Shown piece by piece: positions 332 to 56,818 of a DNA stretch of 64,000 nt. The translations under genes and the position numbers were made by a program. Source of the stretch: Saprospiraceae bacterium (GTDB lineage: Bacteria; Bacteroidota; Bacteroidia; Chitinophagales; Saprospiraceae). Where the stretch lies: positions 1-64,000 of the forward strand of contig JAHDHL010000012.1 of the NCBI GenBank assembly GCA_020631355.1, given 5' to 3'. The notes beneath the pieces are model-generated. The model was not told the DNA's origin and made no database searches. It saw nothing but the letters and a program-made list of their open reading frames with translations. Within the stretch, counting starts at the first letter, position 1. Every line of letters starts with the position of its first letter.

Positions 332-895
332 ATGGAATTATCACTAAGCTTGAAGCATAAAGAAGAAGACTTCATACATGCCTGCGTCCGTAAGGAACGA
401 TGGGCCCAACGGAAGCTGTACGAAATGTACTACAGCAAGATGTTGGGTGTGTGTGTCCGTTATGCCAGGGATACTGAGGAAGCCAAGGATATTCTTCATG
501 AGGGATTCATCAAGGTTTTCAAGCACATAGCCAAATACCAACCCGGAACTTCACTCAATGCTTGGGTGAAAAGAATCATGGTCAATACTTGCATTGACTA
601 CTATCGCAAAATTTCAAGGAGGAGGACTGAAGACATGGACCACGCCAATGGTTTGTTCACCAAGGAACCGGATGCCATTGATAACTGTAGCGAGGAGGAC
701 ATCCTCAAATCGGTACAGTCATTGTCACCCGCTTACAGGGCTGTCTTCAATTTATATATTATCGAGGGCTATTCCCACAAGGAAATTGGGCAAAAGCTAG
801 GGATTACAGAAAGTACTTCCCGCTCGAATTTGGTAAAAGCTAGGTTAAAACTAAGGGAGATGTTGGCTCCCAAATATGCAGATTATGGAAAATAA
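332..895 (+). CDS. ECF-type RNA polymerase sigma factor
   Basis: A 187-residue sigma-70 family protein of the extracytoplasmic-function type, with only regions 2 and 4. Region 2 spans about residues 25-95 (core-binding and -10-recognition helices around DTEEAKDILHEGFIKVFKHI and TSLNAWVKRIMVNTCIDYYR). Region 4 spans about residues 125-180 and carries the helix-turn-helix YSHKEIGQKLGITESTSRSN. The length is normal for the family. The start ATG at 332 gives a complete region 2. The 3' end overlaps the next gene, which encodes a membrane protein with a cytoplasmic N-terminus, so the pair looks like a sigma/anti-sigma operon in which the sigma factor is released by an envelope signal. That pairing is inferred from layout. 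Confidence 0.9.
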   Translation: MELSLSLKHKEEDFIHACVRKERWAQRKLYEMYYSKMLGVCVRYARDTEEAKDILHEGFIKVFKHIAKYQPGTSLNAWVKRIMVNTCIDYYRKISRRRTEDMDHANGLFTKEPDAIDNCSEEDILKSVQSLSPAYRAVFNLYIIEGYSHKEIGQKLGITESTSRSNLVKARLKLREMLAPKYADYGK

Positions 896-46875: not shown

Positions 46876-47433
46876 ATGAACAACTACCTACTGGATGATG
46901 CAGAAGATGAATTGCTCTTTCCGATGGAGCAATTGGTCTGGCATGGAAAACCTGTATACAGGCTCAAGTGGATTCTTGGAGCATCCGTGGTAGTAGCCGG
47001 TTTCTTTCTCTATGGTTTGTATCTCATTATTCCACCAATAATGGAACATGGTTTTGATTCTTCTGATTTTGATTTGTTCTTCAGAGCTACCTTAGCATTT
47101 ATTACACTTACAATTTTACTCGTTAAATATTATTCCCAGAGTAAGGAGCGTTACTGGTTGTTCAAGGACCATCTGGTCATCAGGAAAGGATTCAGGGTCG
47201 TAACCCGTACTTTTTCCTTGGATGAAATCGAAAGTGCTACTTGGGGGATTTTTGATGGGAATGCGAGTGAGGTGGATTATGTATCGTTGATGATGCAACA
47301 GAAAATCAAGGACCCCTTTTCCTTATTTCCGAGCCATACCAAAGCCTTGGTCATTGGTCCAATAAAAAATGGAGACCAACTGGTCAATCATCTTATTCAT
47401 CTGAAAACGACCTCATCCAAGAATAGCAAATAG
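46876..47433 (+). CDS. membrane protein with PH-like (YdbS/YcxB-type) domain
   Basis: 185 residues. Two transmembrane helices (about 31-53 and 69-86) are followed by a 100-residue cytoplasmic domain, starting at YWLFKDHLVIRKGFRVV, with the strand pattern of bacterial PH-like domains; a loop SLDEIESATWGI is typical. It lies 13 bases after the ferredoxin gene, in the same operon by spacing, but no shared role is evident. It has its own terminator. Function unknown. Confidence 0.65.
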   Translation: MNNYLLDDAEDELLFPMEQLVWHGKPVYRLKWILGASVVVAGFFLYGLYLIIPPIMEHGFDSSDFDLFFRATLAFITLTILLVKYYSQSKERYWLFKDHLVIRKGFRVVTRTFSLDEIESATWGIFDGNASEVDYVSLMMQQKIKDPFSLFPSHTKALVIGPIKNGDQLVNHLIHLKTTSSKNSK

Positions 47434-47464
47434 TTGGCATTTGTTGTGATACAAAATGCCGAAT

Positions 47465-47489
47465 CCTAAGTATAGCTTAGGGTTTTATT
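47465..47489 (+). terminator. rho-independent terminator of the ferredoxin operon
   Basis: A 6-bp stem CCTAAG/CTTAGG with a 5-base loop, then GTTTTATT. It is short but well placed, 31 bases after the stop at 47433. Confidence 0.6.
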
Positions 47490-47517
47490 ATATTAGGGAC
47501 ATGAAAACCCTAGTATA

Positions 47518-49017
47518 ATGAAACAATACCTAACCTTAATCCTACTCTTGGTATGTACTTTGGCATCTGCTCAGGATTGGCTGCTTTTTCCTTACCAACA
47601 AATCAATTACTACGAATACGAATCGAATGATGAAACCTACCTGGATTTCATTACTTGTGATTCTATCACTTGGCAAGGGGACACATTGAATAGTTATGTC
47701 GGAATTGATGTGCTGAATCAATTCAACAATGGTACGGGGTGTCTCAAACCCGAATGGGAAATGACATCGGATTATAATATTAGTTTCGATTTTTATGAAT
47801 TAGGATACCTGACCCTACCTGAGTTATTGAAATACCATAATGGATGGGAATATTCACTGATTAATGGAAATGATTTCATCTTCAATAACCAAGCAGGAGT
47901 AGGGGATAGTTGGGGATTTGGTGTAGATATAGATCAAGGTGAGACGGATTCTATTCGATTTGGTTGTCTGTCAAGTACATGGGAGGACATCAATGATTTG
48001 GGCGTAACGGATTCCGTAAAGTATTTTCAGGTAGATTTATATTCCGGAGACAATCATTACCTTACTACAACATGGAGGTTGAGTAAACAGTACGGCTTGA
48101 TTCAGGGAGATCCGATTCGGGATTTGATGTATGGTAGAATTTCGAATTATCAAATGATAGGATTCAGGAATCCCAGTGGGATAGTCGGTGAACAATGGCC
48201 AAGTGCCCAAGAGTTTTATGGAGCTTATTCCATAGGTGATAAGCTGAAATGGGAAATAGAAAGAGAAAATGTTCCCGGTCCCGATTATGTATCAGAAACC
48301 GGAAATATTATTTGGGACATCACATCCATCAATGAGGTCAACGATACCTTGTATATGACCTATGATTTTGAGGAAATCATTTATCATACTTCTGTCCAGC
48401 TGGGTGAGCAGGTATTCTATGAGGTGGGAACTCATACCAAAGCCATTAGATTGACGGATTTTTTGCTCTTGGACCAAGTACCCAAAGGTGGATTCACAGA
48501 TGGATTAGAGTGGGGGATACTTTACCTCAAGGGCCTCAGAAGAAAGGGAACATCCTTTGTATGGGAAGTTGGAGATGAGGGATTTTACGTCGGGGCTGAT
48601 TGTGGTATTGATTTTATACTACATGTTTCGGGATTAAGCCAATACGAACATCTGAAAGGAAAAATCAAGGAGGAAATATGGGAATATGGCCCATACTACC
48701 AAAGAAAAGAATTGATAGGATATGACTTGGGAACCGATTGTGTATGGGGTGATATTTATCCCTTATCCAGTTCGGAAATCATGGAGGATAAGACCGATGT
48801 CCTATATCCGAATCCAACTTCGGAAAAATTGTATGTCAGCACTGGGACAATTGAATCCATTAAAACCTATTCGATATTCAATCCTGTCGGGAAAAAGGTT
48901 TTTCATGCTAACTTCAATGGAGAATACGTGGATGTGTCCCGACTTCCGAAAGGGAGGTATTTCATTTTACTGGATAGGGATGATAAGCGTAGTATCCATT
49001 CCTTTATAAAGGAATAA
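47518..49017 (+). CDS. T9SS type A cargo protein
   Basis: 499 residues. Signal peptide 1-18 (MKQYLTLILLLVCTLASAQ). A large beta-rich body with no recognised enzyme motif includes four scattered cysteines (CDSIT, GCLK, FGCLS, CGIDF). The type A sorting domain begins at about residue 423 (DVLYPNPTSEKLYVSTG) and ends GRYFILLDRDDKRSIHSFIKE. It should be exported and anchored by T9SS. It is followed after 33 bases by the AraC-type regulator gene, which may be read through. Confidence 0.8.
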   Translation: MKQYLTLILLLVCTLASAQDWLLFPYQQINYYEYESNDETYLDFITCDSITWQGDTLNSYVGIDVLNQFNNGTGCLKPEWEMTSDYNISFDFYELGYLTLPELLKYHNGWEYSLINGNDFIFNNQAGVGDSWGFGVDIDQGETDSIRFGCLSSTWEDINDLGVTDSVKYFQVDLYSGDNHYLTTTWRLSKQYGLIQGDPIRDLMYGRISNYQMIGFRNPSGIVGEQWPSAQEFYGAYSIGDKLKWEIERENVPGPDYVSETGNIIWDITSINEVNDTLYMTYDFEEIIYHTSVQLGEQVFYEVGTHTKAIRLTDFLLLDQVPKGGFTDGLEWGILYLKGLRRKGTSFVWEVGDEGFYVGADCGIDFILHVSGLSQYEHLKGKIKEEIWEYGPYYQRKELIGYDLGTDCVWGDIYPLSSSEIMEDKTDVLYPNPTSEKLYVSTGTIESIKTYSIFNPVGKKVFHANFNGEYVDVSRLPKGRYFILLDRDDKRSIHSFIKE

Positions 49018-49050
49018 CAAGGCATTTCCATAAGACGGAATACATTATGA

Positions 49051-50103
49051 ATGGTCAGTAAGTTCGAGCCGGAATGGAATGAGATATACTTCATTGAGAA
49101 GTATACGATGTACCAGATTCTCAAGGGTAATGGTGGAATTGAAGTCGATTTCAAACGGTATCACGACTGGGTGGATAAACTCATTTTCCTTGAAAAGGGG
49201 CAATATATCAAATTCCTTTCCGAGCATTTTGAAGTGAGGAAAATAGAATTCGAGGATGAGCGAATATTCCGGAATAAGGATGTAAGGGTGCTGTTCAAGC
49301 ACTTACTTGCATTGGGTTATATTAATTTCAGTGAATGTAGGAATTGCCAGGAATACCTCAGCCAATCCGTTTTTTCAAAACAAGCCAGTGATATCATAGA
49401 CATATCATCAGAGCAGTGGTATTGGCAGAATCCCTTTCATGCCAACCAAGAGGAATACCACATTATTTTTGATGTCAAGGACGTAATTGACGAGGAGTAT
49501 AAAAACCACTTATCCAACGAAAGGATATCCAGAATGATTGGTATAAGGGAGTATAATGCCCAAGCCTTATACAAGGATAAGATTGGTATTTCCATCAAAT
49601 CGATGATGGGCCGAAAGCGGTTTTTGGAGAGCAAGAAAGAAATTGCTTTCTCGGATAAGAGCATCAAGGAAATTGCCTACGAATTCGGATACAAGGACCC
49701 CGCTTATTTCAATCGGGTATTCAGTAAATTGGAGGGAAAGGCCCCGAATATATTCAGGGAATCATTGGAATACAATAAAAGGGATACATTCCTACCGGAA
49801 TTATATGATTTGTTGGACAATCATCACAAGGAACAACGTTCGGTTGATTTTTATGCCCAAAAAATGAATTTGTCCATTAAGACCTTATCCCGTAAGGTTA
49901 AGGACCAGCTCAATTTAACCATCGGACAATTGATTCGTCAGGAATTGATTACCACAGCCAAATTATTATTGGCGACTGATATGCCCATCAAGGAAATCGC
50001 ATTTGATTTGGGTTTTGAGGAAGCCAATCATTTTTCCTCTTTCTTCAGACGCTATACTACCTATACTCCCCAAGGATACAGACAATCCGTATTATCAAAA
50101 TAA
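49051..50103 (+). CDS. AraC-family regulator with two tandem DNA-binding domains
   Basis: 350 residues. The N-terminal 110 residues form a ligand-domain-like region. A first HTH_18-type domain runs about 155-238 (ISIKSMMGRKRFLESKKEIA, then KSIKEIAYEFGYKDPAYFNRVF) and a second about 247-345 (KTLSRKVKDQLNLTIGQLIR, then MPIKEIAFDLGFEEANHFSSFFRRYTTYTPQGYR). Both keep the second helix-turn-helix and the phenylalanine-rich FNRVF/FSSFFRR helix that marks an AraC domain. Each domain already has two HTH motifs, so four HTHs are present. The protein probably binds two sites or one long operator. Start ATG 49051. Confidence 0.88.
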   Translation: MVSKFEPEWNEIYFIEKYTMYQILKGNGGIEVDFKRYHDWVDKLIFLEKGQYIKFLSEHFEVRKIEFEDERIFRNKDVRVLFKHLLALGYINFSECRNCQEYLSQSVFSKQASDIIDISSEQWYWQNPFHANQEEYHIIFDVKDVIDEEYKNHLSNERISRMIGIREYNAQALYKDKIGISIKSMMGRKRFLESKKEIAFSDKSIKEIAYEFGYKDPAYFNRVFSKLEGKAPNIFRESLEYNKRDTFLPELYDLLDNHHKEQRSVDFYAQKMNLSIKTLSRKVKDQLNLTIGQLIRQELITTAKLLLATDMPIKEIAFDLGFEEANHFSSFFRRYTTYTPQGYRQSVLSK

Positions 50104-50214
50104 TTTTTCGAAAAGTACAATTCAAAGGGAATTTCTTGTACCTGAACAACCGCTGTTCTCCCGCATCTTTGCATTGCAATTTATTTACAAATCATTTCTA
50201 AATCTCAATGTAAG

Positions 50215-50565
50215 ATGAATATCAAAGAACAAGTTCAACAAATGGATGCAATGGTTTCCAAGGGAGCGATTGTGGATGCGGTTAAGTCCTTTTTCTGTGA
50301 CCATGCCAGTACTTCAGATTATGGTGATGTAAGGACCCAGGATAAAAATCAGATGGTCGATAAAATGGAAAACTTTGTAGGAAGTATCGCAAAGGTAAAT
50401 GGAATTACCCATCATCATACCATCGTGGATGGTCATACCTCTGCGTCTGAGTTCACCTTTGATTTTGACATGAAAGATGGTAGTAAGATTCTATGGCACG
50501 AAATTATTCGTCGAATTTGGAACGACTCCGGAAAGGTAACTGCTGAAGAATATTTCCAAGCATAA
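50215..50565 (+). CDS. SnoaL/NTF2-like protein
   Basis: 116 residues with the cone-like NTF2 pattern: helical N-terminus (AMVSKGAIVDAVKSFFCDHA) followed by beta strands (EFTFDFDMKDGSK, WHEIIRRIWN). There is no signal peptide. SnoaL-like proteins bind small hydrophobic compounds or catalyse isomerisations; the reaction here is unknown. It lies 112 bases after the AraC regulator in the same direction and is a likely target of it. A YHS-domain protein follows. Confidence 0.72.
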   Translation: MNIKEQVQQMDAMVSKGAIVDAVKSFFCDHASTSDYGDVRTQDKNQMVDKMENFVGSIAKVNGITHHHTIVDGHTSASEFTFDFDMKDGSKILWHEIIRRIWNDSGKVTAEEYFQA

Positions 50566-50711
50566 ATTCCAAGTAAAATGAACACCAATAAATAATTATA
50601 AAAATCAATTTATTCACAATAAAGTCATTTGGGTTTTGAAGTTGGAATTAAGGTAAATGCTTGGTTTTCAAATCATAAGTTAAATGACTTCAATATTTAA
50701 TTCATAATAAG

Positions 50712-51179
50712 ATGAGACAGATTATAATGCTAATGTTTTCCCTAATATTTACGTCCTCCATTATCTTAGCACAGGATAATAAGGCCAATAATATTGATAA
50801 TAGTAATATTGCCTTGCAAGGATACAGTCCGGTATCTTATGCCGATTTGGGATTGGCGCAAAAGGGTGTCAAGACATTCAAGTCAGAGTATGAGAAAGTA
50901 GTGTATTATTTTACTTCCGAAGAACAGAAATCCAAGTTCGATAAGAATCCAGAAAAATACTTACCCAAATATGGCGGATTTTGCGCTTTCGGTATTTATG
51001 CAGGAGCAAAATTCAGAGTGGACCCTAATAAGTTCATCAGTAAGGATGGGGAATATTTCCTTTATCTGAATAATTTGGAATTGGATGCCAAGCAATTATG
51101 GTTGAATGAGAAAAATCACAATAAGTTGGTAAGTGTAGCGGACGAAAACTGGAAAAAATTAAGTCAGACCCACAATTAA
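50712..51179 (+). CDS. exported YHS-domain protein
   Basis: 155 residues. Signal peptide 1-20 (…SSIILAQ). A YHS-type domain covers about 30-110: NIALQGYSPVSYADLG, FKSEYEKVVYYFTSEEQKSKFDKNPEKYLPKYGGFCAFGI. YHS proteins bind metals or are found beside heavy-metal ATPases; the Cys of GGFCAFG is the typical residue. It may be periplasmic. With the SnoaL-like gene it forms a small unit next to the AraC regulator. Confidence 0.85.
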   Translation: MRQIIMLMFSLIFTSSIILAQDNKANNIDNSNIALQGYSPVSYADLGLAQKGVKTFKSEYEKVVYYFTSEEQKSKFDKNPEKYLPKYGGFCAFGIYAGAKFRVDPNKFISKDGEYFLYLNNLELDAKQLWLNEKNHNKLVSVADENWKKLSQTHN

Positions 51180-51205
51180 TAGATTGAATTGGATGATTAT
51201 TTTTT

Positions 51206-51237
51206 AGGCAAGACTACTTGGTAGTTTTGCCTTTTTA
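51206..51237 (+). terminator. rho-independent terminator of the YHS gene
   Basis: A 12-bp stem with one G-T wobble (AGGCAAGACTAC/GTAGTTTTGCCT), loop TTG, then TTTTTAT. Confidence 0.93.
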
Positions 51238-51381
51238 TATTGGAATTATTTAAACTTTTGGAATCAGTTGTCTTGTTGTAAGACAGATAAAATAAATTTA
51301 AATAGCTTCATTAAATCAAATATTGATTCTACACTATTACATGTTTGGATTGAAGTGCAATTATTTTTGTATCTTAATAGT

Positions 51382-52050
51382 ATGATGTATGGAAATATTG
51401 TACGATTTATATTTTTCATAATTATATTATTCCTTAATATAAATGATAGTGCTGCACAATCATTCCAAAAACAAAATGGTTTGTACGCAGGATATGGATT
51501 AGGAATATTGCATGACGAGGGAATTCCCGAGGAATTAAGTGCCAGCCATTCTTTTTCATTTGGATTTAATGTCAATCTGAAAAAAGAAAATTGGATGCAC
51601 GACTTCAGATTGGGTTTCAGTAGAAAAGGCAGCTATAATTCGATAGAGAAACATACCATAAAATTGAGATACCTAGCGTTTCAATATCTGACTGGATTAT
51701 ATTTCGAGAATATTAGAACAAGCGCCCTCCCTGGGATTTATGCTGCAGTTCTTCCTTGGAACAAGCACAAGGCACATGGTACAGGGACCTCTGATTACTT
51801 ATTCAATAGAATGGATTTGGGAGTTACATTCATGATTATGAACCAATCATTAAGAACACGAAAAAATACATGGCCGATTTACATCCAATGCCAGTATGGA
51901 TTAAGAACGGTAACAGATAACGAAATAGGATACACTGCCCTCACAGAAAGATCATCCCAATGGACCCGGAACCTTACGATTCAGTTGGGTGCTGTTTTCT
52001 ATTTTTCAAGCCATTCACCATTGAATTCGTATCCTTTTCCAGAAAGTTGA
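51382..52050 (+). CDS. small outer-membrane beta-barrel protein
   Basis: About 222 residues from ATG 51382 (MMYGNIVRFIFFIIILFLNINDSAAQ, a signal peptide); the longer frame from 51268 would start inside the terminator-proximal gap with an unlikely N-terminus. The mature part alternates amphipathic strands with turns (GLYAGYGLGI, FSFGFNVNL, FRLGFSRKGSY, LRYLAFQYLTGLYF, LTIQLGAVFYFSS), as in PorT-like barrels of 8-10 strands. It has no close functional mark. It is convergent with the response regulator at 52144. Confidence 0.7.
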   Translation: MMYGNIVRFIFFIIILFLNINDSAAQSFQKQNGLYAGYGLGILHDEGIPEELSASHSFSFGFNVNLKKENWMHDFRLGFSRKGSYNSIEKHTIKLRYLAFQYLTGLYFENIRTSALPGIYAAVLPWNKHKAHGTGTSDYLFNRMDLGVTFMIMNQSLRTRKNTWPIYIQCQYGLRTVTDNEIGYTALTERSSQWTRNLTIQLGAVFYFSSHSPLNSYPFPES

Positions 52051-52143: not shown

Positions 52144-52830
52144 TCATCCTTGATTCACAAACCGATACCCCACACCTCTTACAGATTGGAAGAATTGAGG
52201 CTCCTTGGGTTCCTTTTCAAAGTATTTCCTGAAAGCGAGAATGAAATTGTCAATCGTTCTCGTGGAAGGGTACACATCATAGCCCCAGACTGCTTGGAGG
52301 ATTTGTTGCCTGCTTACGACCTCATCCTTGCGTTCTGCCAAAAGTTTGAGTAACATGGCTTCCTTTTTCGTTAGCCTAAAGGGCCCTTGGTTTCCGACAG
52401 CCTCATAAGTTGTGAAATTAACCTGATTATCCCCAAAATGAAATATTTCTTCTACCGGACGGCTTTGTTTTTTGCTTCTCTTGATAAGATTGGCCACGCG
52501 TAAAAGCAATTCCTCTAGGTTGAATGGTTTGGTCAGATAATCATCCGCACCACGCTTCAGTCCCTGGATTCTATCCTTGGGAGTATCCTTAGCGGTCAGC
52601 ATGATGATAGGGACCTCACTATTCTTCAATCTTACCTGTTCGCAAATATTGAAACCATCCACCTCGGGTAACATCACGTCGAGTATGAGTAGGTCAAAAT
52701 GCTGTTCATTCGTTAGCTTGATAGCTTCCATGCCATTCCCCGTGGATACCACCTCATAATCCTCCATTTCCAGATTGAGTTTGACAATATCCCTGATGTT
52801 TTCCTCGTCCTCTACTAGTAGAATTCTCAT
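52144..52830 (-). CDS. response regulator, OmpR/PhoB type
   Basis: 228 residues. The receiver domain has the acidic pair E7-D8 (LVEDEE), phosphoacceptor D51 (LLILDVMLPEVDG), T in MLTAKD and K in YLTKPFN. The C-terminal winged helix (about 130-226) has the OmpR/PhoB marks LTKKEAMLLKLLAERKDEVV, RTIDNFILAFRKYFE and SVRGVGYRF. It follows the histidine kinase gene by 12 bases in the same operon and is its cognate regulator. The targets are unknown. Confidence 0.93.
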   Translation of the reverse strand: MRILLVEDEENIRDIVKLNLEMEDYEVVSTGNGMEAIKLTNEQHFDLLILDVMLPEVDGFNICEQVRLKNSEVPIIMLTAKDTPKDRIQGLKRGADDYLTKPFNLEELLLRVANLIKRSKKQSRPVEEIFHFGDNQVNFTTYEAVGNQGPFRLTKKEAMLLKLLAERKDEVVSRQQILQAVWGYDVYPSTRTIDNFILAFRKYFEKEPKEPQFFQSVRGVGYRFVNQG

Positions 52831-52842
52831 GCTGCGTATTAT

Positions 52843-53847
52843 TTAAGATGCCTTGGGCAATTGAATGGTGAAAACGGTTCCCTTGGGTTGGTGGTTACCG
52901 ATACTAATCTTTCCCTGATGGGCCAATACCATCTGTTGTATGATATATAAACCCAATCCGGTTCCTTTGGTTTTTCGGGTATCCTCGTTTCCTATTCTAT
53001 AGAATTTTTCGAAGACCTTTTTCTTTTCGGAATCAGGTATGCCCCAACCGTGGTCCGCAATGGTTAATTCGTCGTATTTGCCTTTTTGGGTGTGTTTGAT
53101 TTGAATGTGTTTTTCTTGGTCGGAATACTTGATGGCATTCTCTATCAGATTGATGAATATGGATACGAGGGATTTGTGGTCAGCAAAGATACTGGCTTGT
53201 TCATCCAAGGATAATTCCAATACCACATCCTTGTGTTTGGTCAATATGTTCTCCCTGATACCGTCGAGTAGGGGATACAGCTCGATGTGCTCCTTATCCA
53301 CCTCGACATTGGTAGTTTCCATCCTAGCGGCAAGCAATAGGTTATTCACCAGGCTTTCCAATCGTTCGGCTTCATTCAGTGCATTACCCGAAAATTTGGC
53401 AATCCTTTCCTGGTCCAATTTCCTTTTGCTGAATGTTTGGAGAATCAACTTGATGGATGCAAGAGGTGATTTCAGTTCATGGGTAATGGAAAGGAGAAAA
53501 TTCCTACTTTGGCGTGCGGCTTCTGTCTGCCTTTGGTATCCGCGATTGATGAACCAAATACCAATAATCAATGACAATGCCAGTACGGAAGCTTCTCCCA
53601 GAATCATACGTTCCTGTTTCTTGTATTTTTCCTTGAGTGCGAGATAATCCAGGTCTTTCTCTAGGATATTCATGTCCAAGGGACTACCATCAACGGATTT
53701 GGTAATTCTCAACAACTCTGTTTTAGCCAGAAATGCATCATTATTCTTGAGATAAAGAAGATAGGACCACCAGGCAAGGGCCAATAACATGTAGCCGATG
53801 ACTACAAAGGAGAGTAACCTTAATCGCTTATTTTTCTTGTTGGCCAA
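52843..53847 (-). CDS. sensor histidine kinase
   Basis: 334 residues. TM1 about 11-33, a short periplasmic loop of about 50 residues (34-81), TM2 about 82-100, then a HisKA domain with H123 in the H-box SITHELKSPLAS and an HATPase domain (N-box NLIENAIKYSD, G1 DHGWGIPDSE, G2 GTGLGLYIIQQ). The small periplasmic loop suggests signal input through a partner protein or the membrane rather than a large ligand domain. Its first 20 bases overlap the 3' end of the CHAT-protein gene upstream, which couples their translation. Confidence 0.9.
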   Translation of the reverse strand: MANKKNKRLRLLSFVVIGYMLLALAWWSYLLYLKNNDAFLAKTELLRITKSVDGSPLDMNILEKDLDYLALKEKYKKQERMILGEASVLALSLIIGIWFINRGYQRQTEAARQSRNFLLSITHELKSPLASIKLILQTFSKRKLDQERIAKFSGNALNEAERLESLVNNLLLAARMETTNVEVDKEHIELYPLLDGIRENILTKHKDVVLELSLDEQASIFADHKSLVSIFINLIENAIKYSDQEKHIQIKHTQKGKYDELTIADHGWGIPDSEKKKVFEKFYRIGNEDTRKTKGTGLGLYIIQQMVLAHQGKISIGNHQPKGTVFTIQLPKAS

Positions 53848-56773
53848 TGATTCCTTTTTTATTCAAGTATACACCCAAAATGATGAACAAAACAAGTGCT
53901 GAAAAGATGTATTGGGCGTACTTTTCGTACCAAGGTTCGTAAGCTATGGGATAATCTGACCCAATGATGACAATGCCCGCCCAGTAAAAGGGGTGCATAA
54001 CGTTGGGGCCACCCTTATCCAGAAACTCCAATTTGGCTTCTCTCAACGCCTTGGACTTATTCTTTCCCTGCTGGAGTTTATGGTAATATTTTACCATGAT
54101 TTCCTTGGTGGGACGGTCACTCATATGCCAGAGGGTACTAACCGTCGATGGACAACCTGCATAGGCGAAACCTCTGGCAAGGCTCATGCTACCTTCTCCC
54201 TTTTTTAGTGAACCTAACCCCGCATTACAGGCACTCAGGGTTACCATATCCAAGTCCAAGGTCATATTGTATAGTTCGTGGGCTGGCAATTCGAATTTAA
54301 CCAATGGATTCTCACTGAATATGAGTTTGGATTGCAAAGGATATTCACTATTGATGGATGTATGTCCGGCAATATGTAATATGGTATGTTCCTTGACCTT
54401 TTCCTTGAAGCTACTGATAGAGGCTGTAGTATCCTTGAGGATGCAGCCGCCCATGCATTCATTGATGAATTTGACTTCTTCCAGTGCGAATGGTAATTCC
54501 TTGAATGTTTCACTGTAATATTCAGGTGCGATTCCAAGGAATTTGGGTTTTCTTCTCTTGGATGGACTGCGGTCTATCAACTGCTGCGCAGAATAATCAT
54601 ATCTGAAAATGTGGTCATGTATCAATCTTGAATAGAATGATGAATCCTTGCCCAGTATCTCAAAGGATAGGTTATTGAGTATTCCGTCAGGAATGATGAT
54701 GAATTTCCTTTCCTGCTGATGTTGTTCATGGATGTGTTCGAATAATAACTCGTACAAGGAAACAGCTGCCTGATTGGAAAAATTCCTTTCCTTATCATAA
54801 AGCGATTCAGTCAGATCAGCTATCAATTGTTCAAGTGTCTCGCGCTTGATGGATTTCTTGATGAATTGGTGTTGCTCCGCATCAATGATAAAAATATAGA
54901 GTTCATCGGATTGGATATGGTATTCAATCAGTGTCTCGGATTTCCTGAGTGCTTTTTTTAGTTGCTCAATATTAATTTTGTTGTTGCTGTATTTCAACTG
55001 ATAATACTTGGGGTGTTTTTCCTCTATATCCAGTAGGTATTCATTGTAATCGGTATGCAATGCCACCAATCTTTCATTGATATCCCTGAGTTCCTCAGCC
55101 TGCAATTCATCTGCATTATTGAGCTGTTCCTTCAGGAAATCCATTTCGGATTTGAGTTCTTTTCCTTTTTGGAATAATGATTCGGATATACCGGTTTTCT
55201 CAATGGCCAGGTATTCATTCAATGCATCAGTAAGGGAAGCTGATTTTGTTTTTTCACTTGCTTGGAATGCATATTGCAGATAGCGCACATCATTGGTCTG
55301 ATGGTACAATTCATAAGAAATCCGGATGATGTGTTCACAAATGGGGTAGAGAGCTTCTGTCAATGCGGATTTGGAACCCTCGAATTGGTACGTAGGTTTG
55401 ATTTGTTGGGATAACGTTTGGGCCTGAATGTAAATCCCCAAAGCTTTTTCCAAAGAAATCGATTCTGTATATTTTCCTAATTGTTCATAGCAGGCTATGA
55501 GGGAGATGGGGTAGATGATGGCTTCATTTGGTGGCAATTCATTGATGTCGAATGCATAATCCCTCCTTAGGTTAGCCTTGATGGCATCAATGAGATAGCG
55601 CTCTCTTTCCTTGGAATCCTCATCATAGAGATTGGATAATGCGATGAAATTATCGGATTCCTTTTCTAGTGGAATGGCGCTTTTTAGGTGGTGCTCCTTG
55701 GACATGAGGAAATATTGTTTCGACTTTTGTCTGGAGGTATTCTTTAGCATACCCAGCTGATAAAAAATCTGAGCCTTGGCATTATTTCGATGGTGTGCAT
55801 GGTTCAATTCGGCAATATCCAACGCTTCCATATACAGTTTTTTGGCCTTTGGGGCATCCGTATGGGAATAGGCATTTGCCATGCCTATCATTTGGCTCAG
55901 GATATTCTTACTATCTTTTTGGGGCGTAACTTCCATAGCCTTTTCGTAATGATGGATGGAAGTCCTGTAATCTCCAATCTTGTAGGATGAATTGGCCAAG
56001 CCCTCATGATAATACTGGGTGAAAGGATGTTTTTCTCCATGTCGTTCCTGAGTACTGCTCAAGGCCATACTGAAGTATTTCTTTGCATTCGCAAAGTCCT
56101 TCTTGATCATTCTGATATCCCCGAGTAAACCCAAACAGCCATAGTCTATTTCCAAATCTGGTTTACTCAAACTATTATTTCGCTTGATGATATCCTTGGC
56201 CAGCGAATCTGCAGTTTCCATTTCATGCAGATAGAAATGGATGTAAGCCATATTGTAGTCACTTGTAATCCGGTCTACCTTGTATCCTCTTTTCTTAACG
56301 AAACTAGCACTAGCTGAATAAAACTCCTTGGCCTTATGGTATTCGCTATTGTATTCATAAGCATAGGCTATCCGGTCAAGGGAAGCCGCTATCCGCTTAC
56401 AAGCAAGGGTCAGTCCCTCATCATTATTCAGATTGAAAAAGAAAAAGACACGTGCGAACAAATGGAGTGAAAGCTGTTCCAAGGCTATGGAAAGTGATTG
56501 AGGATTCTCTTGTTCCTCATATTCGAAATATTGCCGTTCCAATCTGAGGTGAGCCTGTTCCAGTGCAATAGAATCCTTTTCCCAAGTAGTAACTTGAGAC
56601 AGGGTATCAGTTTCATTAGTGCTTGTATCATCGGATTGTCCCTTTGAAAGAACGGGGATTAGGAACAATAGGATACAGACAAGCCATTGTAGTCCGTTAC
56701 TTGGAATGCAGTTCATTGCATTATTAACCTTAGTATTGGAAGATACTGTAATGGTTGTTTGGGTTGTTGCCAT
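53828..56773 (-). CDS. TPR-CHAT protein, exported and membrane-anchored
   Basis: 981 residues. A signal-like hydrophobic segment (about 29-43: QWLVCILLFLIPVL) follows a short N-terminus; ATG 56716 (MNCIPSNG) is an alternative start. About 90-500 are TPR-type helices. The CHAT domain spans about 610-940 and keeps the caspase-like dyad: H804 in LHIAGHTSINSE and C849 in VTLSACNAGLGS, with KGEGSMSLARGFAYAGCPS, STLWHMSD and the final FYWAGIVIIG. A C-terminal transmembrane helix (about 955-970) follows. Signal peptide and C-terminal anchor would put the protease domain outside the cytoplasm. It lies upstream of, and overlaps, the histidine kinase gene. CHAT proteases cleave specific proteins; the target is unknown. 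Confidence 0.85.
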   Translation of the reverse strand: MATTQTTITVSSNTKVNNAMNCIPSNGLQWLVCILLFLIPVLSKGQSDDTSTNETDTLSQVTTWEKDSIALEQAHLRLERQYFEYEEQENPQSLSIALEQLSLHLFARVFFFFNLNNDEGLTLACKRIAASLDRIAYAYEYNSEYHKAKEFYSASASFVKKRGYKVDRITSDYNMAYIHFYLHEMETADSLAKDIIKRNNSLSKPDLEIDYGCLGLLGDIRMIKKDFANAKKYFSMALSSTQERHGEKHPFTQYYHEGLANSSYKIGDYRTSIHHYEKAMEVTPQKDSKNILSQMIGMANAYSHTDAPKAKKLYMEALDIAELNHAHHRNNAKAQIFYQLGMLKNTSRQKSKQYFLMSKEHHLKSAIPLEKESDNFIALSNLYDEDSKERERYLIDAIKANLRRDYAFDINELPPNEAIIYPISLIACYEQLGKYTESISLEKALGIYIQAQTLSQQIKPTYQFEGSKSALTEALYPICEHIIRISYELYHQTNDVRYLQYAFQASEKTKSASLTDALNEYLAIEKTGISESLFQKGKELKSEMDFLKEQLNNADELQAEELRDINERLVALHTDYNEYLLDIEEKHPKYYQLKYSNNKINIEQLKKALRKSETLIEYHIQSDELYIFIIDAEQHQFIKKSIKRETLEQLIADLTESLYDKERNFSNQAAVSLYELLFEHIHEQHQQERKFIIIPDGILNNLSFEILGKDSSFYSRLIHDHIFRYDYSAQQLIDRSPSKRRKPKFLGIAPEYYSETFKELPFALEEVKFINECMGGCILKDTTASISSFKEKVKEHTILHIAGHTSINSEYPLQSKLIFSENPLVKFELPAHELYNMTLDLDMVTLSACNAGLGSLKKGEGSMSLARGFAYAGCPSTVSTLWHMSDRPTKEIMVKYYHKLQQGKNKSKALREAKLEFLDKGGPNVMHPFYWAGIVIIGSDYPIAYEPWYEKYAQYIFSALVLFIILGVYLNKKGIIGQQEK

Positions 56774-56810: not shown

Positions 56811-56818
56811 CAAAAATA
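56811..56818 (-). promoter_or_regulatory. possible -7 element of the CHAT-kinase-regulator operon
   Basis: The minus strand reads TATTTTTG, a full match to TAnnTTTG, 38 bases upstream of ATG 56773. No TTG at -33. It supports ATG 56773 as a usable start. Confidence 0.35.

Follow-up and report, generated by a model that had tools for sequence, protein, structure and literature searches.

Does a CHAT protease whose gene runs into that of a sensor histidine kinase take part in the signaling of this kinase, or do the two genes only share a transcript? The question is raised by a row of three genes in the Saprospiraceae bacterium assembly GCA_020631355.1 (Bacteroidota), on contig JAHDHL010000012.1, of which positions 1 to 64,000 were analyzed (64,000 nucleotides, hereafter called the window). 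CHAT proteases are best known from cytoplasmic CRISPR and cell-death settings, and an initial annotation of the window had suggested that the CHAT protein is here the sensor, or the protease, that gates the kinase. The explanation that we tentatively prefer, with somewhat less than even confidence, is that of an operon specific to this lineage, where a TPR-CHAT protein, periplasmic and tethered to the inner membrane, would have been taken on as an accessory input by a two-component pair of much older standing. Proteolytic gating of the kinase by CHAT is one plausible reading of such an input.

According to open reading frame (ORF) calls, the genes for the TPR-CHAT protein, the histidine kinase and an OmpR-type response regulator form one minus-strand row in that order, with a 20-base overlap between the CHAT and kinase genes (53828-53847) and a 12-base gap between kinase and regulator (52831-52842), just as the initial annotation had described them. 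The row has the following parts:

53828-56773, minus strand: TPR-CHAT protein gene, 981 amino acids (ORF; Pfam CHAT and TPR_12)
56657-56707, minus strand: N-terminal hydrophobic segment, residues 23-39, likely the core of a signal peptide (hydropathy)
55928-56128, minus strand: best TPR_12 match, residues 216-282, within a helical region (Pfam; low-confidence structure model)
53957-54766, minus strand: CHAT domain, residues 670-939 (Pfam)
54362-54364, minus strand: presumed catalytic histidine H804 (invariant in 21/21; aligned to the H of solved CHAT chains)
54227-54229, minus strand: presumed catalytic cysteine C849 (invariant in 21/21; aligned to the C of solved CHAT chains)
53864-53914, minus strand: hydrophobic helix at the C-terminus, residues 954-970, with a basic tail behind it (hydropathy; relatives are laid out similarly)
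52843-53847, minus strand: sensor histidine kinase gene, 334 amino acids, TTG start, two hydrophobic helices, no HAMP match (ORF; Pfam; hydropathy)
53608-53751, minus strand: predicted periplasmic loop of the kinase, residues 33-80 (hydropathy; comparison with relatives)
53479-53481, minus strand: kinase phospho-acceptor H123 (invariant in the 10 rows of the kinase alignment)
52144-52830, minus strand: OmpR-type response regulator gene, 228 amino acids, with D51 as the likely phospho-acceptor by inspection (ORF; Pfam)
56811-56818, minus strand: TAnnTTTG upstream of the CHAT gene (motif scan)

The arrangement recurs in the genus to which the genome belongs. Clear orthologues of the kinase (E 1e-40) were found in 152 of 199 genomes of the family, with one match each in all but one genome and at most ten candidates scored per genome. 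Besides the window, 79 kinase loci were fetched, 7 from the genus and 72 from outside it, one of the latter being dropped from the upstream count for want of 800 upstream bases. Genes were called by a simple ORF rule, and gaps depend on the first start codon. On this basis a CHAT gene lies directly upstream of the kinase gene in all six assessable genus-mates (7/7 with the window), at a spacing of -32 to +25 bases, while the locus of the seventh genus-mate is cut inside the kinase. Since it recurs in 6/6 assessable genus-mates, the linkage is beyond chance. Approached from the CHAT side, with flanks of 1.5 kb, a kinase was likewise found in 3/3 genus loci. The seven kinase-linked CHAT domains share one clade, with a support of 100/97, in a tree of 63 CHAT domains, and the recruitment of CHAT to the operon is thus lineage-specific, concerning a single clade within one genus.

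A few other configurations were encountered among the kinase loci. Outside the genus, in locus L213 (G138), a CHAT gene is convergent to the regulator gene of a hemL-linked kinase pair. In order-level relatives (L111, 4102-7773), a very large ORF of 1219-1236 amino acids with weak kinase similarity adjoins the orthologous kinase or lies near it; large ORFs are also found upstream of the orthologous kinase in L116 and L119, and the one that was scanned, in L111, is a membrane histidine kinase according to Pfam. Genes of about 430-470 amino acids upstream of the kinase in relatives were considered as CHAT-less TPR ancestors of the window's gene, an idea that was rejected, as those that were read proved to be hemL.

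The CHAT protein has an intact dyad. Its CHAT domain (PF12770) was identified with an E value of 4.4e-50 and 171.2 bits against a cut-off of 24, and TPR_12 with an E value of 2.1e-12. The columns of H804 and C849 are invariant in 21/21 aligned CHAT domains (21 of 22 stretches, a long-branch copy from L144 being excluded), and in a second alignment both residues occur in 61 of 62 rows, the remaining row being a fragment gapped at the histidine. A profile built from the 21 domains reached solved CHAT chains, including Craspase entries (best E 5e-5), with H and C aligned. Because of this invariance and alignment, H804 and C849 are by homology the CHAT dyad, which the initial annotation had rightly called intact; cleavage of peptide bonds is only presumed. 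Searches with the single sequence were less rewarding: 26 sequences found in the PDB at E values up to 1 aligned to the TPR part and not to the CHAT domain, and no relative was confirmed in a first contig search with the protein sequence, nor in a viral contig search with the CHAT alignment.

Hydropathy places one hydrophobic segment at the N-terminus of the CHAT protein, whose start is ambiguous (M1 and M20 are both possible), and one, with its basic tail, at the C-terminus. This suggests that the CHAT domain is periplasmic and tethered to the inner membrane by the C-terminal helix, and hence supports, as a prediction, the initial annotation in putting the domain on the same side as the kinase loop. 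Out of 56 other CHAT proteins, 46 have the C-terminal helix, and 26 are full-length with just an N-terminal segment and a C-terminal helix. Within the genus, the CHAT domain is 39-46% identical to that of the window (6 genomes) and the TPR part only 20-26% (4 genomes), i.e. the domain and its dyad were retained while the presumed sensing part drifted. In G008 the CHAT gene (L084, 1482-4656) is read as two overlapping ORFs of 163 and 898 amino acids, suggesting that either the gene or its assembly contains a frameshift.

The kinase (HisKA, E 5e-11; HATPase_c, E 3.6e-26) and the regulator (Response_reg, E 3.8e-32; Trans_reg_C, E 2.8e-22) together have all the domains expected of a two-component pair, i.e. 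HisKA, HATPase, receiver and winged-helix output. Translation of the kinase would start at a TTG that lies within the last part of the CHAT gene, the first in-frame ATG being residue 20, within helix 1. Its hydrophobic segments, at residues 9-25 and 81-97, leave a predicted extracytoplasmic loop of about 50 residues, in agreement with the initial annotation. The pair could not be assigned to a named system, as the NCBIfam cut-offs were missed for RprY (167.4 against 370), Bacteroidota PhoB (184.4 against 270) and Bacteroidota PhoR (131.6 against 500), and no RprX model was among the best 25 of 83 NCBIfam matches. The TAnnTTTG upstream of CHAT, which we take to be the Bacteroidota -7 promoter motif, also occurs in G008 and G002 and is absent in G006 (four upstream regions were examined). 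Scans for sigma-70 promoters and terminators gave site numbers about equal to those in shuffled sequences, or lower.

The wider CHAT family adds another layer of evidence. The window's genome has 20 CHAT matches, of which 19 are above the Pfam cut-off and some are partial. Using a profile seeded from genes beside CHAT loci, we found a gene resembling an extracytoplasmic function (ECF) sigma factor within 3 kb in 27 of the 54 other CHAT loci examined; in a control scored with the same profile, 2 of 72 kinase loci had one. As some control loci are short, the comparison was also limited to loci flanked by 2.5 kb or more on either side, where the figures are 20 of 39 and 2 of 50, respectively. The 54 loci are a non-random sample: 13 come from the same genome, and 41, in 40 regions, were for the most part drawn in order of rank from the head of a match list. 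A Pfam Sigma70_r2 match at E 0.01 was found in 18 of 28 sigma-like ORFs. Near the CHAT genes, 25 of 29 proteins of an anti-sigma-like layout show a single hydrophobic helix, in most cases located within residues 60-135; gene order and layout point to an anti-sigma identity, and out of three that were scanned, two gave weak, below-cut-off TPR matches and one gave none. Kinases, on the other hand, lie within 3 kb of only 4 of the 54 other CHAT loci, and a general preference of CHAT for kinase neighbors was consequently rejected. The only sigma-like ORF in the window (332-895) is far from the operon. We read the CHAT proteins near sigma-like loci as probable envelope-side inputs to transcription, one of which would here be attached to a two-component system.

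Several loci in the same genome illustrate the range of CHAT contexts. Repeated cassettes, some of them in tandem (L133, 2988-13791; L132, 3032-12056; L134, 6929-12036), bring together genes for an ECF-sigma-like protein, an anti-sigma-like protein with one helix, a protein with a type IX secretion system (T9SS) tail and a TPR-CHAT protein. In L129 (620-5616) a TPR-CHAT gene is preceded, at a distance of 116 bases, by the gene for a subtilase with a T9SS sorting tail, which recalls the contexts of ECF54, and in L128 (5122-10190) a TPR histidine kinase of 734 amino acids is encoded on the same strand 191 bases after another CHAT gene.

If the CHAT protein is indeed an accessory input, its TPR part would meet an envelope cue or a partner protein, and this contact would change the CHAT domain, which would be close to the short loop that the kinase exposes to the periplasm. 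CHAT could then alter the output of the kinase, either by binding or by limited cleavage, and the regulator would carry the changed output to the DNA. In this way the operon would correspond, on the two-component side, to the sigma/anti-sigma-like loci found beside many sister CHAT genes. As a new way to switch a kinase, this use of CHAT is plausible but unproven.

A number of findings weigh against such a recruitment, and several of them suit a plainer account, to which we assign a lesser though still considerable probability, namely that a rearrangement in the ancestor of the genus put the kinase pair behind CHAT, as it stands behind hemL in many relatives, so that the genes share transcription with no functional tie. 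Outside the genus, none of 71 loci has a CHAT gene ahead of the kinase, and the occupant of this position is changeable, being hemL in 38 and other genes in 33; the kinase therefore needs no CHAT neighbor in general. In a second collection CHAT was found in 1 of 76 upstream positions, apparently the G005 locus again, as the contig matches that of G005 in content and in its length of 5418 bases, and hemL in 19, and from the CHAT side no kinase was seen in the 1.5-kb flanks of the 27 best non-genus loci. The survey was a family-level sample, with wider Bacteroidota reached by 12 order-level or other loci and by the second collection. The regulator follows within 400 bases in 62 of 70 outside-genus loci with enough sequence. 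The kinase-regulator pair is old in Saprospiraceae, while its link to CHAT is new and, within this sample, limited to one genus, and a conserved Bacteroidota-wide system, which would show the linkage outside the genus, was not found. The operon looked for on the strength of the initial annotation exists within the genus and was not found beyond it among these loci; CHAT relatives are enriched beside another type of regulator gene, the ECF-sigma-like one. The same annotation had named relatives with the kinase and CHAT genes apart as evidence against its proposal, and such relatives are found both in the 71 kinase loci and in G002 (L035), the eighth member of the CHAT clade, where CHAT lies beside a DUF2400 gene and where no kinase orthologue was found in a genome that is 80% complete. 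In the genus itself, hemL could be located in 6 of 9 genomes, always on another contig than the kinase. CHAT also changes much faster than its partners, the regulator being 81-85% (5 genomes) and the kinase 56-67% (7 genomes) identical to those of the window. Nor does anything suggest that the kinase loop was visibly remodelled for CHAT: its median length is 48 residues in both 5 genus-mates and 71 others, and its identity (47% in the genus, 32% in others) falls roughly in step with that of the kinase domain (57% and 48%). Furthermore, an N-terminal segment occurs in just 38 of the 56 other CHAT proteins, the topology was read from hydropathy alone, and AlphaFold2, run on the CHAT protein with one relative (L224) as aligned sequence, gave a poor model (mean predicted local distance difference test 51, predicted template modelling score 0.35), with helices across residues 55-586 and the highest confidence at about 171-280.

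The surrounding block tells a similar story. Upstream, a metallophosphatase gene and, by inspection, a Nudix gene are conserved in 2/2 genus loci that reach that far, and downstream of the regulator, ferredoxin genes are found in 4 of 5 genus loci; none of these genes has an obvious tie to the operon. As such unrelated neighbors are also syntenic, the adjacency of CHAT and kinase in the genus is by itself moderate evidence. Two observations nevertheless speak against shared transcription as the whole explanation: the spacing of CHAT and kinase is near zero in 7/7 assessable genus genomes even though whole CHAT proteins, where near-complete, have diverged to 26-31% identity, and the enrichment of CHAT relatives near sigma-like genes shows that signaling neighbors are non-random for the family. 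In the window, unlike in four genus-mates where ferredoxin and regulator are neighbors, about 5 kb (46876-52050) lies between the two, with genes for an AraC-type regulator, a T9SS-sorted protein and a YHS-like protein.

CHAT could also be the output of the system, i.e. an effector, for instance a protease acting in the envelope or in regulated death, in an operon that the regulator itself controls, with no gating of the kinase. The operon begins with CHAT, which has the promoter-like TAnnTTTG upstream, and CHAT as well as caspase-like proteases are known as effectors. We nonetheless consider this unlikely, as no convincing OmpR-type direct repeats were found upstream of CHAT, and as PADLOC matched the CHAT protein only to a TPR model, the kinase and regulator to candidate families in their kinase- and receiver-domain regions, and one neighbor weakly to LmuA. 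An envelope-side antiphage system related to Craspase, at which the distant relationship to the solved Craspase CHAT chains might hint, is highly improbable given the predicted periplasmic location and the conserved local synteny in the genus. Moreover, PADLOC found no CRISPR-Cas or gasdermin family among nine neighboring proteins, hence no Cas7-11 as in type III-E systems, and a simple scan found no CRISPR-like repeat array in the window; to this extent the initial annotation, which had denied any CRISPR or gasdermin gene here, holds.

Known systems offer partial parallels to the recruitment that we favor. DegS is a serine protease that cuts an anti-sigma factor, whereas cleavage in the window's operon is only hypothetical. 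The site-1 proteolysis of RseA by DegS, where an envelope protease gates transcription, has been compared with Craspase (Csx29, Csx30 and CASP-sigma of type III-E CRISPR) in passages of PMC10028731. There, Csx29, a TPR-CHAT protease activated by target RNA via Cas7-11, cuts the sigma inhibitor Csx30, a precedent for tying CHAT proteolysis to a transcription regulator (PMC10028731). The window's protein shares the TPR and CHAT layout with aligned H and C; it differs in having a predicted signal peptide and transmembrane helix, and in being linked to a kinase, not to a sigma inhibitor. ECF54 sigma factors have CHAT, subtilase and carboxypeptidase genes in their context, with proteolytic control proposed, as excerpted from PMC8999054. 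In both cases a CHAT gene adjoins a transcription regulator, and a subtilase beside CHAT is also seen in L129, but the window's regulator belongs to a two-component system with no adjacent ECF sigma gene. In Thioploca ingrica and Beggiatoaceae, a TPR-CHAT gene closely follows one that encodes a REC-domain protein, according to portions of PMC5108060; these are Gammaproteobacteria, with a REC-domain protein and not an operon of a kinase and an OmpR-type regulator, and the pair is split in a related genome named there. Metacaspase operons with sigma-70 genes, in Myxococcus and others, likewise combine a caspase-like gene with a transcription regulator (sections of PMC3501461), but their protease is Peptidase C14 and not CHAT, and while signaling or sensor domains are listed for 23 operons, these sections describe no kinase-regulator operon. 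Among titles, abstract openings and some passages of the open-licence literature, no description of a CHAT-kinase-regulator operon of this kind was found.

The larger lead may lie in the membrane-tethered CHAT proteins that appear tied to sigma-like loci across the Saprospiraceae. In a bolder scheme, which we put forward as speculative and rather improbable as a whole, an expanded set of inner-membrane-tethered periplasmic TPR-CHAT proteases would serve this family as exchangeable envelope-side switches of transcription. Their targets would be one-helix anti-sigma factors at roughly half of the examined loci, whereas the genus of the window would have rewired one such protease to a histidine kinase, yielding a caspase-gated two-component system. 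If a periplasmic, membrane-tethered CHAT protein is truly tied to kinase or sigma signaling, bacterial caspase-like proteases would have a part in ordinary envelope sensing as well, and this would suggest a function for the CHAT gene family that is so abundantly matched in this genome.

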